From contig KQ482057.1 in assembly GCA_001430745.1 (NCBI GenBank), positions 180,052-244,051 of the forward strand: a stretch of 64,000 nucleotides of DNA, in the 5' to 3' direction. The translations under genes were made by a program, and so were the position numbers. The notes beneath the pieces were generated by a model that saw only the letters and a program-made list of their open reading frames with translations, was not told the origin of the DNA and made no database searches. Shown here piece by piece: positions 28,087 through 36,881 of this stretch (its first letter is position 1; every line of letters begins with the position of its first letter). This DNA is from Auxenochlorella pyrenoidosa (lineage: Eukaryota > Chlorophyta > Trebouxiophyceae > Chlorellales > Chlorellaceae).

Positions 28087-30146
28087 TCAGTGTGTCTTAT
28101 CTGCCTCCCCGGGCTCAAGTTCTGCGCTCACTTCCGCCATGGCCTTGCTCGCCAGGCGCCCAATGTAGCCGACCGCCAGCGCAGTGACGCCCAGGGCGAG
28201 CCCCACCTGCAGGCCCAAAAGGGGGGTATTGATTGGTGGCGAGGTGGGACAGGCATGGCACATGTGGTGCGCAGCCCAGTGCTGGCAGTGGTCGAGGCTG
28301 CTATTCGTGGCTCGACCCTGACCAGCGGCCACCAGGAGGCGGCAAGTAGGCGCCCAGAGCAGCGGGCCCGCGCTTGCCTGCCACCAGTGCGGCCCCTCCA
28401 GGGCTCCCCCGCCCTCCAGCAGCTGCTTGCCGTACTTGCCAGCCGCCACGTACGCTGCCGTGCCTGCATGGGCGCGGAGCAACACAAGGCAGGGTGGGGT
28501 GGAGTGGGGGGTGGGGCATGGCCCGGCAGGGCCTGTGGGCTGGACGACTGAGCAGGCAAGCAAGTGCGCAGCCAGGCCGCCTCAGTCTGTCCCGAAGGGA
28601 GAAGCAAGCTTCTCTCTTGAAGGAAAAGCGAGCAATGCGGCTCACCGGGAAGCATGCCCAGCCACGAGCCTGCCACGTACTCCCAGAGGCCCACGCTGGT
28701 GAGGCCATAGCTGCAGGGGCAGGCACCAAAACAGGCGGTCGGCCACCATATGCCTGTGTGCTGCGCAGCACATGCAGAAAGCAGCCCTGGGCGCGGGCTC
28801 AGCTGCCTCGAGAGGGCAGCGGCAAGGGCAGAGCACCAGGAGGCTGGCGGAGGAGGGTTATCAAAAGGGGCCGGCCGGCGCTCACAGGTAGTTGCTGGCG
28901 GCCAGCGGCAGCAGCGGGCTGAGGCGCAGCAGCACCACGACTCGGAAGCCGTCCCGCCCAATCGCCCGGTCGATCGCCGCAAACTTAGGGTGCGCGGACG
29001 CGTACTGCAGCGTCAAGGAAGGGCAGCAGTGGGCACAGGGCAAGGAAAAGGGGCCTCACTGAACTGCCGCGTGGAAGCAAACAGCGCGCGCGAGTGGAGC
29101 CCACTGGGCAGTGCCAGCGCAGGTGCAGGCAGCGAGGAGCGGGGGCGGGCGCCGCACCTGGGCAACCCTGTCGCGTGCGACGTAGCGCGCGATCAGGAAG
29201 GCGGCGGTGCATGCGGCGGTGGCGGCGATCGACACAATCACAGTGCCAGGCACCACGCCGAAGATGGCGCCGGCGGTCATCGTCAGCGGGATGGCGGGCA
29301 CTGTCGGGAGGAAGGGGCGCGGAGCGGGTGACCGCACATCGAGGCTGGAAGGACCCACGCCTGCCACGTCAAGCCATCCTAGGCCGGCGCCGCAGCAACC
29401 CCGCAAAACCCCCCTGCACGCTGCACACCGGCAAGCAGCTCCAGGCCGGCATAGACGACGCCATAGGCGACAAAGCCCAGCGGGCCCCAGTCATCCACCA
29501 GCGAGATGAACAGCTGGATGAAGGCGCTGCATAAAACAGTGGGCGGGGCCAGCCGGGGCGGCTGCCGTGAGTCAGGGCCTCAAGTTCGGTGTGCGCAGAA
29601 GTGGAGGCAGGAGAGGAGGGCAGGATGGGCGAGCACAGGCGACAGGCGATGCCAAGGCACAGCCGCACCTGATCTGGTCTTTAAACACCACACCGCCGCC
29701 GATCAGCAGCGCCAGGCCGCCCACCACCCCGAGAGATGCTGCCAGCTTGGCGCTTGGGCCTGTTGTGCGGGGCTCGTCATCAGCGCTGCAGTCGCAGGGG
29801 CCGATAGAGCAGGGACCAACCAGCTGGCTGCAGCTGCAGCACCGGCGGCGGTGGCGGGGGGCGCAGCTGGCAGGCAAGCGCCCGAGAGCGCAATTCAACT
29901 TCACCTCTCGAGAGCCGAAAGCCTGTCGCCACCAAAGTGCTGGCAAAGCACGAGCACGCACCTTGCTGTCTCAGCTTCCGTGTCTTGCTGCGCCTGCAGC
30001 GCTCGCAGCTTCGGGCAGTGCTGCAGGCGAGGGAAGGCTGTCGAGCGTGCTCCTCGCCGCAATCCAGGCAGGGCTCTGCGTCCAGCAACTTGCTGCAGGC
30101 CGAAAACCTGTGCTGTGCATCGCCCTGGCGCACTGCAAGCCAGCAT
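28087..30146 (-). CDS. TVP38/TMEM64 (DedA-type) membrane protein, probably plastid-targeted
   Basis: Polytopic membrane protein of the SNARE-associated/VTT domain family. The first in-frame ATG (30146) gives MLACSAPGRCTAQVFGLQQV, an Arg/Ala/Ser-rich and acidic-poor leader that resembles a plastid transit peptide. Then come ADDEPRTTGPSAK, a membrane span (LAASLGVVGGLALLIGGGVV), LVDDWGPLGFVAYGVVYAGL, the VTT core PAIPLTMTAGAIFGVVPGT, AFLIARYVARDRVAQ, IGRDGFRVVVLLRLSPLLPL, YGLTSVGLWEYVAGSWLGML and AAYVAAGKYGKQLL. The end is VGLALGVTALAVGYIGRL then a charged tail, TGA at 28087-28089. The match is to the land-plant subgroup with organelle-targeted members. Related proteins act as lipid scramblases or transporters; the substrate here is unknown. 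Confidence 0.9.
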
Positions 30147-30502: not shown

Positions 30503-33500
30503 TCAGACTGCTGCGACGGCGGTGGGCAGCACCGCCGCTGGGCTGCTCTCGCTGCTGCCGGTCAGTGTGGCGTGGTACTCGAGAGCCAGGTCCTCCAGCG
30601 GGTTCTCTAGCATGCCCAGGAGGTCCCTGCAGCCAAGCAGTGGGTGCACATGTGGGGGATGCAAGCATGGGGACACATGGATGAGTTGCGTCAAAGGGCC
30701 CACAGATCAGTGCAGGAGGCAGCGGCCAGCATCCCCAGCTCCATGCGCCATGCTCAGGGCTGCGCCTGGAGCGCCAGGCGGTGCCTTGGACGTGCTCTCG
30801 GCAGCACGCCCACCCCGCACCTGATTGTCACGTGTCCTTGCAGCAGAAGGTTGCCAGTGCCGCTGTCCTCGCGGCACAGCGCATCAAAGTCTGCAGAGGC
30901 ATCCAGGTCGTTTGCGACAGACAGCCCCACGGCCAGTGCGCCTGGCGCGTGGCCGTGCTGCTGCGAAAGACCGAGCTCCACGGCCTGCATGGAAAAAGGG
31001 AGTGAGGCGGAGAAGTATGCTTCCCAGACCATGCGGTCACCAAGCGCTGGCAGCAGATGAATGCCAGGCGTCAGCAGTATCCACACGCCATCCCCGCAAA
31101 GTCACCGGGTGCTGGTCCGCCGCTCTCGCCTGGTTGGCAGGCAAATCGCAGCCTCACCTCGGACAGCTGCGCAATCGTGGCACCGGCAGGGCACCCCAGG
31201 TATGCCATGCGCCAGCTCAGGCTGCCGCCCGCCTGCAGCCGCACGTGCGCCACGCCGGACGCCAGGCCAGCTTCCAGCGACCGCTCCACTGCCAGCTGCT
31301 CGGCACGCTGGGCCGCAAGGGCGTGCTGCTCAGCCACTGCAGCGTCCACCTCGGGTGCGGCTGCCGCAGCCTGCACATTCTGAGCCGCTCCGCCATACGA
31401 GCGGGTGCCACCGGCTGCCGCCGCCTCGTTGCTGCCTCCGTTGGCTGCGGCGTGCGTGGTGCCATTGGTGCGCCGCGCGGGTGCGGGCACGGCGCCAAGG
31501 CCGCCCTCCTCTGGCACCGGGGCGCCCGGCACGCCGCTGGCGGCCTTGACTGCCGCCTGCACCGCCACGGCCAGGAAGTCCAGCATGCCGTCGGGCGACT
31601 GCAGGTCTACCAGGTCTGCAAGGATCTGCTTGTAGTGCTGGCGCAGCAGCGGGAAGTTGAGGCGCTGCGCCTTGCCGCCCTGCTGCTGCAGGCGGTCGAG
31701 GTCGTATGCCATGCCCGCCTCCTCTGCCGTGTTGTACAGGCCGAGGCTGACCTCCTTGCCAGCACGCTTGGTGCGGGCCTGCCAGTTGTCGCCCTGGAAG
31801 CGCACACCTCTGAAGGAGAGGGAGGAGCGGGGCAAGGGGGCTGGTTGAGAAGCGAGTGCAAGGGACCAGCCAACGCGGGGTGCACAGCAGTGCAGACCGG
31901 TGGAGAATGCCACTGCTGCACCCTTCAGAGCATCAACCCGCCCGTGCGCACCGGTACTGCCCAGCCCCGGTCTCGTCCTCGTCGCCCAAGTTGAGCTTGA
32001 GGCGCTTGGCCTCGCTGGCAGCGGGGGGGGCGCCCCGTTTGGAGCCCCCCGGCTGCCCGCGGGCCCGTGACGTCACCCGCACAGTCCCGTCTGCTGCCTG
32101 CTGTGTTGTGGCTGCCGCCTGTGGCGGTGCTGCGGCCGCGTCTGTGCCCTGCACTTGCTGCTCTGGCGGCGTCTCCGCGTGCTGCTGCTGCTGCTGCTGC
32201 TGCTGTTGCTGCTGCTGTTCGCTCGTGCTTGGGCCCTGCACGGACTGCTGGCGCTGCGCAGGCAGTATCGCCTGTGGTGGGGCTGGCCGCCGTGTAGCTG
32301 CTTGCATCTTGACCTGCAGGGTAGACGTGACAGGGCGGGGTTCCAAGATAAATGCATCAGCTGGGCAGTTGCAGCATGCAGTGTGCCGCCCAGGAATCCA
32401 GCTGCCAGGGCAGCCACCATCCTTGCAGGCGTGCCCGACCGCCCACCCTCCCCGGCTCCCACCCGCGCGATCTGGTGGCCCACCGCCCTGGCGGCCTCCA
32501 GCACCTCCACGGAAGGGTCCAGCATGCGCTCCTCAAAGCTGCGGATGTCGCCAAACATGGCCCCCAGCAGCAGGTCGAAGTTGGGGTCCTGCAGGGGCTC
32601 AAGGGGATGAAGGAGCAGATAGGCGCGGCACGCCAAGCCACGCCTCAAGCTTGCCCCTGGTCCATGTACTCCGTTAAGCCCAAGTTGGGCTGCCCTGCCA
32701 CTTGGATGCCACCGTCCGCCACGCCGTCCCAGCATGTCTGCCAGCACCCACCGGCTTGCAATCGCGCTTGGAGGAGAACTTGATGCGGCACTGCGGGCAG
32801 TTGTTCTCTCTGAGGGGCGCAGGCAGCAGGGAGGGCAACATGTTGAGGGCCTCCACCAGCCCTGGACCTGAACGGGGCGCTGGTGCTTCCACAGGCATGA
32901 ATAGTGGCAGGCTTGTGTGTGTCGGCTTAGCACGTCATGTGTGCCCCTGGCAAGCCCAGGCAGCAGCTTGCCACTCACATCTGGGTGCGCAGCCAAGCCT
33001 CGATGCAGTCCTTGCAGAAGCGGTGCATGCAGGCCGACACTGCACGCGTGTTCTTGATAATTCCTGCTTTGTTGGTCAAGAGGGCCGGCAACTGGCGCAA
33101 CTGGTGAGCAGTGCGGCAGAGCGAGAGCCCGACGCTCGGTCCGTCCAGTGCTTGGAGGGGGTGAGCTCCCTGGCTACTTGGGTGCAAAAATGACTGGCCA
33201 ACCAGGCAGTCAGCGGTTGATCCAAGGTGCAGGGTGGGCGGGCACGTGCAGCAGGGCCCATTTCATGCTCACCCATGCAGATGGAGCACTTGCAGTGCTC
33301 CAGAACGCCCTCCAAATCCAGCGTCACCCGGAGCCTGCAGCATGCAGATTCCACAGTCAGTCTGGATGCGCTGGGCGGCAACTGGGCGCCACAAGCAGCG
33401 GGAGAAACAGGCAGCGGGCAAGGCAGCAGCCTGTGCATGCGCGCACAGGCCAGCACCCACCCGGCGCGCAGCGACAGGAGAGCACCCGCTTCGACTGGCC

Positions 33501-33911
33501 CTTGCGCTTGTCCCTCGCTCGTCGCAGGAGCGGCACCTGTATCTGCATTAGGGGGGGGCGGGCACGCTCTGCAGCGAATGGGACAGGCTCTGCGGCACCT
33601 GCGCGCTTGAAGGTGCACTAAGAAATGTTTGGGGATCGAATAAGCCAGCACCCAGCAGCGTGCTGGTATCAGGAATCAGGCAGCCAGCTAGGGTGTGCCG
33701 CCCATATGCGCTGCTGAGCACCATCACCTGCATTGCTGAGGGCAGCAGGCTCAGCCGGGCCAGCAGCAATCATGTCTGCCTGCTCGCTGTGCGAAGCTGC
33801 GGCCGGAGCGGGTGCCGGCTCGGGCGGCGGTGTGCTGCCCGCCACATCTGACTGAGGTCCAGAGGATCCACAGGGATCACCAGCCTGGCCAGCAGAGGGC
33901 GTGTCTGCCAT
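30503..33911 (-). CDS. Polycomb RING1-type E3 ligase with an internal AP2 DNA-binding domain
   Basis: ATG at 33911 (MADTPSAGQAGDP) opens a Pro/Ala-rich leader. Phase-matched exons give LRVTLDLEGVLEHCKCSICM, GIIKNTRAVSACMHRFCKDC, IEAWLRTQMRENNCPQCRIK and FSSKRDCKPDPNFDLLLGAM: a complete C3HC4 RING plus the PDPNFD tail that marks RING1/RING2 of Polycomb repressive complex 1. The next exon (phase 0 join, R-V-K-M) has a polyQ run and a basic SKRGAPPAASEAKRLKLN segment. An AP2 domain follows: QYRGVRFQGDNWQARTKR, SLGLYNTAEEAGMAYDLDRL, GGKAQRLNFP. The C-terminus resembles a RAWUL domain: AYLGCPAGATIAQLSE, AVELGLSQQ, GNLLLQGHVTIRDLLGML, EDLALEYHATL. TGA is at 30503-30505. Probable role: H2A mono-ubiquitination with built-in DNA recognition (inference). 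One gene rather than two is supported by splice phase and by RAWUL lying after AP2. Confidence 0.85.
32180..32219 (-). repeat. CAG/CTG run encoding polyglutamine in the RING1-AP2 gene
   Basis: About a dozen CTG triplets on the + strand, interrupted once by TTG, encode a Gln run on the minus strand between the RING and AP2 domains. Such a repeat is likely to vary in length. Confidence 0.9.
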
Positions 33912-34372: not shown

Positions 34373-36881
34373 ATGGGCGGCGGCCGAGGCGACCAGAGCG
34401 CAATCGGTGAGGCGTGGGGTGCGAGCGCGGCATGCCGGCCCTCCCCTGTCACCGACAGCCAGGCCGGAAATCAAAACCTGGCTGCCTCCGTCGCCCCTGC
34501 AGACGCCACCGAGCCCCTGCTGGCCGACAACGAGGATCGCTTCGTGCTCTTTCCCATCAGGTGGGGGGCCTGCCCTGCGGCGCTCGCCGCCGCGCCTGCC
34601 CGGCCCTGCACAAGCTGTTCTTAGCTGCCGCCGCCTTGCCCAGCCACACAAACTCACCTTCAGGGGTCCTGGGGACGAAATCCGAGCCTTCCAGCGCGAG
34701 CCACTGGTGCTGCTGGGCGCACGCCGGCGTGTGCTGGAGCGCCGCTCACAAACACCCTCCTCGTGCCGGCTGTCCTCCCATTCCTGCAATTCAAAAACGG
34801 CTTGAATGCGCCGTCCCCCTCCTGCAGGTACCGCGACATCTGGGAGTTCTACAAGAAGGCAGAGGCCAGCTTCTGGACGGGTGAGGCACCAGCGTGTGGG
34901 CCCACCATTGGTAACCCTGCGTGTTCAGCGGGCAGGCTGTGGCGCCGCCACGTCCCGTGACGCAGCACCCCCGCCCCCCCGCCCCGGCCCCTCCCTGCTG
35001 CAGCCGAGGAGGTGGACCTGGGCAGTGACGTCAAGGACTGGGAGCGCCTGAACGACGACGAGAGGCACTTTGTGTCGCACATCCTGGCCTTCTTCGCCGC
35101 CTCTGATGGCATTGTGCTGGAGAACCTGGGGGCGCGCTTCATGAAGGAGATTCAGGTCCCCGAGGTGAGCGCAGCCAGGGCAGGGCCTGAACAGTGCGCC
35201 CGCCGTGAACTTCGCGCAGGCCTGAACATGCATGGGCGCAAGCAAGCCGCAAGGCGCTCCTGGCGCGTCGGGAGCAATCCTGGCGCGCGACTCGCAAGGG
35301 CAACGGCTGCCCGCCTTGCGCCGCCAGCGTGCCTCCTGACTCCACGCCCCCTCGCACCGCCCCCGCCCTCTCTCTCCCGCCCGCAGGCGCGCGCCTTCTA
35401 CGGCTTCCAGATCGCCATCGAGAACATCCACAGCGAGATGTACAGCCTGCTGCTGGAGACGTACATCAAGGACAGCAAGGAGAAGGACCGGCTGTTCCAC
35501 GCCATCCAGACGGTGCCCGTGGTGAAGAAGAAGGCAGAGTGGGCGCTCAAGTGGATCACCAGGTGTGTGCCCGGGGGTGTGTGGCAAGGCAGCTCGAGCC
35601 TGCCCCGCCCGGGGCTTGCATGCCAGCCTGCCCTGCTCGCCTATGCGCCGTTCCATGCCAACCAGCAGGGCCCGCGCCTCACTGCTCAAGCCCTTCTGCC
35701 CGACCCCTCCTGTGCCCCGCCCCGCAGCGCGGAGCGCTTTGCTGAGCGGCTGGTCGCCTTTGCCTGCGTGGAGGGCATCTTCTTCTCGGGCTCTTTCTGC
35801 TCCATCTTCTGGCTCAAGAAGCGCGGCCTCATGCCCGGCCTCACCTTCTCCAACGAGCTCATCTCGCGCGACGAGGGCCTGCACACCGACTTTGCGTGCC
35901 TGCTGTACAGGTGCGCGGCGCCACGGGCTCTTCTCCCTCGCTGTATTGCAGCAGGGGGCGCATGGGGGGGGGGGGGGGGTGCATCTGCATGGGCAGCCCA
36001 TCGCGTTGAAGCAGAAAGCACAGCATGCTGTGCGCTCAGGCTCACGCATCATCCCTTGCCGTCTGTTGTGCAGCCTGATGAACAACAAGCTCAGCGAGGA
36101 GCGCATCGCCGAGATTGTGACCGAGGCAGTCACCATTGAGAAGGAGTTCATCTGCGACGCGCTGCCCGTGGACCTCATTGGCATGAACGGCCGCCTCATG
36201 TCGCAGGCAAGGGCGGGGAGCGCAGCTGCCAAGGGGCCGGAGGGATGCGGTGGCATGTGCCAGTTGGCCACCACACTGGGCGGACCTCCTTCCCATCATG
36301 CAACCCCTCCCCTGCTGACTGCAGTACATTGAGTTTGTGGCCGACCGGCTGCTGGTGGCACTGGGCAACCCCAAGGTGTACAATGTCGGCAACCCCTTCG
36401 ACTGGATGGAGCTTATCTCGCTGCAGTGAGTGCAAGCGCACACGCGATGCAGCCCCTGCCGTGCTGTCTGCAGCATGCGTCTGCTTGCTGTGAGGAGCGT
36501 TTTGGGTGCAAGCTTGATTGTTGAAAATCAGCAAGACACAGGCTTAGCTGCAGCTCACAGCTCGGCTGTGCACATCTCTCGTCTCCGCAGGGGCAAGACC
36601 AACTTCTTTGAGAAGAGGTGAGGCAGCTTGACGCAACTTGGCCGGGCATTGGCCAGCAAGGTTTTGGTGCACGCCCTGTCTGCACTGAGCAAACCGACTC
36701 GCTGAGGTTTTCAGTCCATTTTCAACCAAGCGCCGGCGCATGCTGGCGGCCTTCACCCTGTTCAACCAGCCAGCGCCTCTCCATGCACTGCAGGGTGGGA
36801 GACTACCAAAAGGCGGGCGTCATGGCTGGCCTCACCAGCACAGACAACCAGCATGCCATGAGCTTTGACGAGGACTTCTGA
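34373..36881 (+). CDS. RNR2: Ribonucleoside-diphosphate reductase small subunit (R2)
   Basis: Class Ia R2 subunit, which houses the di-iron tyrosyl radical for dNTP synthesis. ATG at 34373 ([11 protein letters not shown]) is followed by [18 protein letters not shown] and [18 protein letters not shown]. Ligand motifs are all present: [13 protein letters not shown] (Asp), [19 protein letters not shown] (Glu, His and the radical Tyr), [14 protein letters not shown] (Glu) and [14 protein letters not shown] (Glu, His). [35 protein letters not shown] and [10 protein letters not shown] follow. The C-terminal MSFDEDF is the peptide that docks to the large subunit; TGA is at 36879-36881. One intron starts with GC (36207-36324) and another has a 16-G run. 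It is divergent from the RING1-AP2 gene, with an E2F-like site upstream that fits S-phase expression. Confidence 0.97.
35964..35979 (+). repeat. 16-base G run in an RNR2 intron
   Basis: An uninterrupted G homopolymer inside the intron before the exon encoding [16 protein letters not shown]. Its length is likely to be unstable or misread. Confidence 0.85.

Follow-up and report, generated by a model that had tools for sequence, protein, structure and literature searches.

A RING1-type ubiquitin ligase gene with an AP2 domain between its RING and RAWUL-like regions in Auxenochlorella pyrenoidosa

The window analysed here is a stretch of 64,000 nucleotides from the green alga Auxenochlorella pyrenoidosa (GenBank assembly GCA_001430745.1, contig KQ482057.1, positions 180,052 to 244,051 of the forward strand). 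On its minus strand, from 33911 to 30503, lies a gene of 10 exons and 9 GT-AG introns, read in one frame of 632 codons and a stop (Table 1). The 632-residue product contains, in this order, a RING finger of RING1 type with its E2 (ubiquitin-conjugating enzyme) and nucleosome positions, a basic linker, an AP2 domain, a conserved helical block and a RAWUL-like ubiquitin fold, and the order is common to several relatives. The initial annotation had proposed a RING1-type ligase with an AP2 domain between RING and RAWUL, which is borne out by the gene model, by relatives that share the order and by the uninterrupted frame of one of them, P0004. The motifs it quoted are present on the minus strand; the start it gave for the linker exon, 32319, is corrected to 32313. 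Intron lengths range from 126 to 209 bases, and retention of seven of the nine would introduce a stop; a retained intron 6 would cause a frameshift, and a retained intron 2 (126 bases) neither. Least certain in the model are the joins of exons 1 and 2, both of low complexity.

The three domains were recognised by different routes: the RING by Pfam and comparison with the PDB, the AP2 by PDB comparison and a family profile, with a Pfam score under the cut-off, and the RAWUL by profile comparison and predicted folds of relatives. Pfam recognises the RING with an E-value of 1.9e-10, and the best PDB matches of this stretch contain RING2 (1.8e-20 for a RING2-BMI1 chimera and 4.2e-18 for 2ckl), with PCGF1 at 1.8e-7 and others weaker; judged by these E-values against solved structures, the finger is nearer to RING1/2 than to PCGF or other RINGs. 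The key positions of RING1B are I53, D56, K97 and R98, of which I53, K97 and R98 are conserved across eukaryotes and D56 is replaced by glycine in Arabidopsis (PMC10638273; this and the other papers are cited for the parts available to us). At the aligned positions the window protein carries I, G, K and R, and so keeps the E2 and nucleosome positions I53, K97 and R98. Among nine relatives the K97-R98 pair is K-R in six (P0001, P0002, P0003, P0004, P0006 and P0015), R-R in P0018 and P0019, and H-R in P0020; P0018 also has V at the I53 position. No close RING1 paralogue was seen in the genome searched (51.6 Mb, 65 contigs), where the window RING and the arm that follows it gave four matches, all to the gene's own exons.

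Against WRINKLED1 the AP2 stretch reaches an E-value of 4.6e-7 when searched alone and 5.2e-15 when searched as a family profile. In relative P0004 the corresponding region is predicted with high confidence to fold as an AP2 domain, and all 11 alignment rows agree at the GV, W, T and LG positions. By sequence, and by the fold modelled for P0004, this is an AP2 domain; a chance match was considered and rejected on the basis of the family-profile match and of the P0004 model. The helical block, which lies outside the AP2, is conserved among the relatives too.

The C-terminal stretch has no Pfam match, nor does its profile find a match in the PDB. In a profile comparison with RAWUL, however, it outscores all of 300 shuffles, and the C-terminal domain in the structures predicted for two relatives is closest to the RAWULs of RING1B and PCGF1, narrowly ahead of other ubiquitin folds. 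On these comparisons the product ends, as RING1 proteins do, in a RAWUL-like ubiquitin fold. That the RAWUL was a wishful reading was also considered, since Pfam and the PDB profile left it unsupported at first, and was then countered by the shuffle control and the folds of the relatives. Being so strongly diverged, a RAWUL of this kind would easily be overlooked in surveys. Genome searches for the RAWUL family and for the CXC family returned nothing and are uninformative, as their controls were equally silent.

Three protein searches, with candidates preselected by shared words (at most 8,000 in the first two), yielded 20 different proteins, one of which (P0011) is the frame of the window itself and has no source given; the nearest named ones come from Chlorella, Micractinium and Nannochloris. 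The RING-AP2-RAWUL order, sought in other algae, recurs among them, including in entries from Chlorella vulgaris and Micractinium conductrix. All three domains, at least partly, are found in one chain in 6 of the 20: P0001, which begins within the RING; P0002 (C. vulgaris, named RING1b), with the RAWUL cut short; P0003 (M. conductrix, named RING1a), which loses the RAWUL end where the model enters the next gene; P0004, whose RING-AP2-RAWUL frame runs without a stop through 495 codons of a 2,104-base contig, and would fit a spliced transcript if introns in that alga resemble those here; P0006; and P0018 (Nannochloris 'desiccata'), with a marginal AP2 (E 1.6e-4, or 0.034 with P0006 also left out). 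An AP2 or part of one without a RING is present in nine (P0005, P0007-P0014), several of which resemble single-exon gene calls, a RING without AP2 in three (P0015, P0017 and P0020), and one (P0016) is an AP2-only paralogue. P0019 (JGI, 414 aa) has RING and RAWUL and no AP2 (E 74 with the AP2 profile, 1.7e-32 with the RAWUL profile), and may be a useful outgroup or a case of AP2 loss. Although P0002 and P0003 are already called RING1 in databases, their precomputed domains consist of the RING only. We found no description of a RING1 with an AP2 domain in the open-licence literature, which misses most subscription papers; in the part of PMC3900384 available, 'AP2 domain' occurs among the references alone.

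The closest AP2 elsewhere in the genome (G000:C26:2033160-2033306) is 84% identical over 49 residues and belongs to a lone AP2 gene, L007 (G000:C26:2031687-2034815), where it occupies locus positions 1501-1629; a second match downstream holds more of the helical block. L007, which has a relative in Micractinium tetrahymenae (P0016), shares with the RING1 gene a block of similar sequence after the AP2 and a phase-2 intron just before GVRFQG (splice sites by our own reading), and this common position and phase point to common descent of that AP2 exon. In contrast to the RING1 gene, L007 has an extra intron within the AP2, and no RING or RAWUL was noticed in the part read. A tree in which good support is limited to 1 of 12 inner branches, and whose bootstrap has not settled, places the two lone AP2 proteins together and does not tell which copy came first. 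The remaining AP2 matches in the genome are remote: one search gave five places, with that of the window ranked fourth, and another gave a weak match on contig C16 (E 0.068). AP2 stretches 33-46% identical to that of the window also occur at 20 loci on viral contigs (L014-L033).

The genome has six matches to H2A, of which four were read; three of these end in LLPKKTGKKAEAA and one in LLPKKSGKKGGSVSQEF, with the double lysine kept. A separate peculiarity is the match at G000:C23:1735540 (L010), listed with an open frame of 11,950 codons, which is probably explained by masked bases, the fetched locus having 1,296 N. No PCGF was found with a human BMI1 query, although one could escape a human query that is searched exon by exon. 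The single match of this query is a RING exon at G000:C57:1385502-1385579 (L034), which we take to resemble COP1. Exons matching the SET domain of a human EZH2 query at G000:C60:681024-681716 (L035-L037; E 4.6e-5 to 8e-4) suggest a PRC2 methyltransferase, other SET families being possible. The published surveys, in the parts available, report full-length Ring1 and Bmi1 RING in chlorophytes and no LHP1 in seven chlorophyte genomes (PMC4397884), and RING1 in C. reinhardtii and M. pusilla, and not in O. tauri (PMC5405695); together they describe algal RING1 without LHP1 and mostly without other parts of Polycomb repressive complex 1 (PRC1). These two and PMC8364250 disagree on the PRC1 parts of chlorophytes.

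The gene probably encodes a RING1, that is, a catalytic PRC1-type E3 ligase, acting as a DNA-guided H2A ubiquitin ligase, where both DNA binding and activity are what we infer from the domains. The basic stretch would take the protein into the nucleus, the AP2 would bind particular DNA sites, and the RING, perhaps as a homodimer because no PCGF was found, would ubiquitinate the conserved lysine pair of the H2A tail on nucleosomes close by, while the RAWUL may join partner proteins. The AP2 would thus do in cis the job of separate recruiters such as VAL1 in land plants. The initial annotation had likewise suggested that one polypeptide could select DNA sites, ubiquitinate chromatin and replace separate recruiters; this is plausible given the conserved RING positions, the lysine pair of the H2A tails and the lack of LHP1 in the seven chlorophyte genomes of PMC4397884. 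More tentatively, the PRC1 ligase of Chlorellales could be self-targeting, with the inserted AP2 reading a DNA motif at which H2A is ubiquitinated without PCGF, LHP1 or a separate recruiter, and with the lone AP2 paralogue competing for the sites or sharing them.

Several observations weigh against this interpretation. The AP2 of the window protein lies under the Pfam cut-off (21.3 vs 33.3 bits, a gathering score that is a curated threshold and no biological feature), as does that of the four relatives, out of seven, in which the domain is listed, the other three (P0003, P0006 and P0007) showing none; several positions that we take to contact DNA in AtERF1 differ. With these changed positions, the conservation of the helical block and the drift of the AP2 in P0018, one could read a single chain whose AP2 no longer binds specific DNA, and forms with the helical block a protein contact or dimer part that holds nucleosomes or partners. 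We consider this unlikely, as the GV, W, T and LG positions have stayed invariant and the P0004 AP2 is confidently predicted to fold as such.

The relatives also include split forms. P0005 of C. vulgaris (7 member sequences), whose contig equals that of P0002 in length, is an AP2-RAWUL protein without RING and with an apparent start in the intron that precedes the linker exon, and P0015 of M. tetrahymenae (3 members) is a RING protein without AP2 that ends after the polyglutamine (polyQ) tract; they may be isoforms or faulty models. Both would be expected if the locus yielded mainly a RING-only and an AP2-RAWUL protein from overlapping transcripts, with the full fusion minor or absent, and the initial annotation had named a separate start for the AP2 part as a sign of two genes. 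Intron 6 has no in-frame ATG before exon 7, which favours one gene, whereas a start at the ATG inside exon 7 is possible and the split of P0005 and P0015 points the other way. P0001, P0003 and P0004 span the join, P0004 without interruption on its 2.1 kb contig, and the exon 6-7 join is present in P0015 itself. Moreover, the alignment with RING2 (2ckl) extends eight residues beyond this join into 'vkmqaatr', encoded past intron 6, which supports the join. We therefore find two products very improbable, and two adjacent genes misread as one were rejected as the main explanation on the grounds of the spanning relatives and of the RING2 alignment.

For the proposed DNA-guided H2A ligase, further difficulties come from the model, the substrate and the literature. 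The RING has low predicted local distance difference test scores (pLDDT, about 35-49), and of the six H2A matches the lysine pair was read in four, while one more has an internal stop. In the parts available, PMC8364250 found no RAWUL proteins in chlorophytes, and PMC10638273 says that the H2A mark is unreported outside holozoa and Arabidopsis. Since PMC4397884 and PMC5405695, as far as available, suggest that algal RING1 moonlights outside PRC1, other subunits being missing, and no PCGF was found here, the protein might be a RING E3 that uses its AP2 to reach DNA-bound non-histone targets (e.g. other transcription factors), and no H2A ligase. This is quite doubtful, since the nucleosome-contact positions retain their K-R pair and H2A its two lysines. 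The most serious caution is that promoter-bound LexA-RING1B in Arabidopsis gave no H2AK121ub and slightly lowered the reporter, whereas LexA-VAL1 did give the mark (PMC8408475, part available); a DNA-binding domain within the ligase may therefore be helpful without being sufficient. The gene would be a natural counterpart of this tethering, kept in several algae. The way in which PRC1 is directed to its sites has yet to be settled in plants (PMC8408475) and is little studied in algae, and a ligase with a built-in DNA-binding domain, if true, would be a direct and testable answer.

Table 1 Features of the RING1-AP2-RAWUL gene, in window positions
Feature	Position	Strand	Basis
RING1-AP2-RAWUL gene, coding span, 632 aa	30503..33911	-	nine GT-AG introns, single open frame
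Exon 1: start codon and low-complexity N-terminus	33728..33911	-	gene model
Exon 2: low-complexity N-terminus; weakly supported, acceptor picked by frame	33461..33542	-	gene model
Exon 3: RING start (first cysteines, CSIC)	33273..33334	-	gene model, Pfam, PDB comparison
Exon 4: RING (CMHRFCKDC)	32979..33063	-	gene model, Pfam, PDB comparison
Exon 5: RING end (CPQCR), K-R pair aligned to RING1B K97, R98	32752..32809	-	gene model, PDB alignment
Exon 6: PDPNFD (its DPNFD) and arm after RING	32463..32588	-	gene model, PDB alignment
Intron 6 (disputed join): 149 bases, phase 0, no in-frame ATG before exon 7	32314..32462	-	intron reading
Exon 7: KMQAA motif, polyQ linker (32217-32182), basic stretch like a nuclear localization signal (32040-31993; putative role), first AP2 residues	31952..32313	-	gene model, PDB alignment
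Exon 8	31158..31809	-	gene model
AP2 core, within exon 8	31650..31808	-	Pfam, PDB and family-profile matches; fold on relative P0004
Conserved helical block after AP2 (LLRQHYK..DFLAVAVQAA..VPG)	31524..31649	-	alignment of relatives, predicted model
RAWUL-like region, first part (VAHVRLQ..AGATIAQLSE)	31158..31253	-	profile comparison; folds on relatives
Exon 9: RAWUL-like region, middle	30821..30984	-	gene model, alignment, relative's fold
Exon 10	30503..30626	-	gene model
RAWUL-like region, end (DLLGML..LALEYHA), in exon 10	30569..30626	-	gene model, alignment, relative's fold

Head to head with the RING1 gene, with about 460 bases between them, lies a gene for the small chain of ribonucleotide reductase (34373-36139, plus strand; PF00268, 2.1e-69), whose start (34373) is placed by the frame alone. 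Downstream of the RING1 gene, and on its strand, is a gene for a VTT-domain membrane protein (28963-29748, minus strand). As P0003 of M. conductrix joins RING1 and a VTT protein, the gene order looks conserved and the P0003 model is probably an artificial fusion.

With RING1/RING2 (RING1A/B) the algal protein shares the type of RING, the arm after it with a KMQA-like motif, the E2 and nucleosome residues, and the succession of a RING and a C-terminal RAWUL. It differs from them by the AP2 and helical block in the linker, by a RAWUL too diverged for Pfam and by having no PCGF partner found. Its AP2 has in common with those of WRINKLED1, AtERF1 and TEM1 a predicted three-stranded sheet and helix and the pattern GVR...W...LG...EEA...YD...LNFP, but it sits inside an E3 ligase, scores under the Pfam cut-off and presumably has several DNA-contact positions changed. 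The closest parallel in function would be VAL1, which recruits PRC1 through BMI1 in Arabidopsis by means of a B3 domain (PMC8408475, part available): both systems have a plant-type DNA-binding domain, which in Arabidopsis is on a separate BMI1-binding protein, whereas in the algal gene it is within the ligase.
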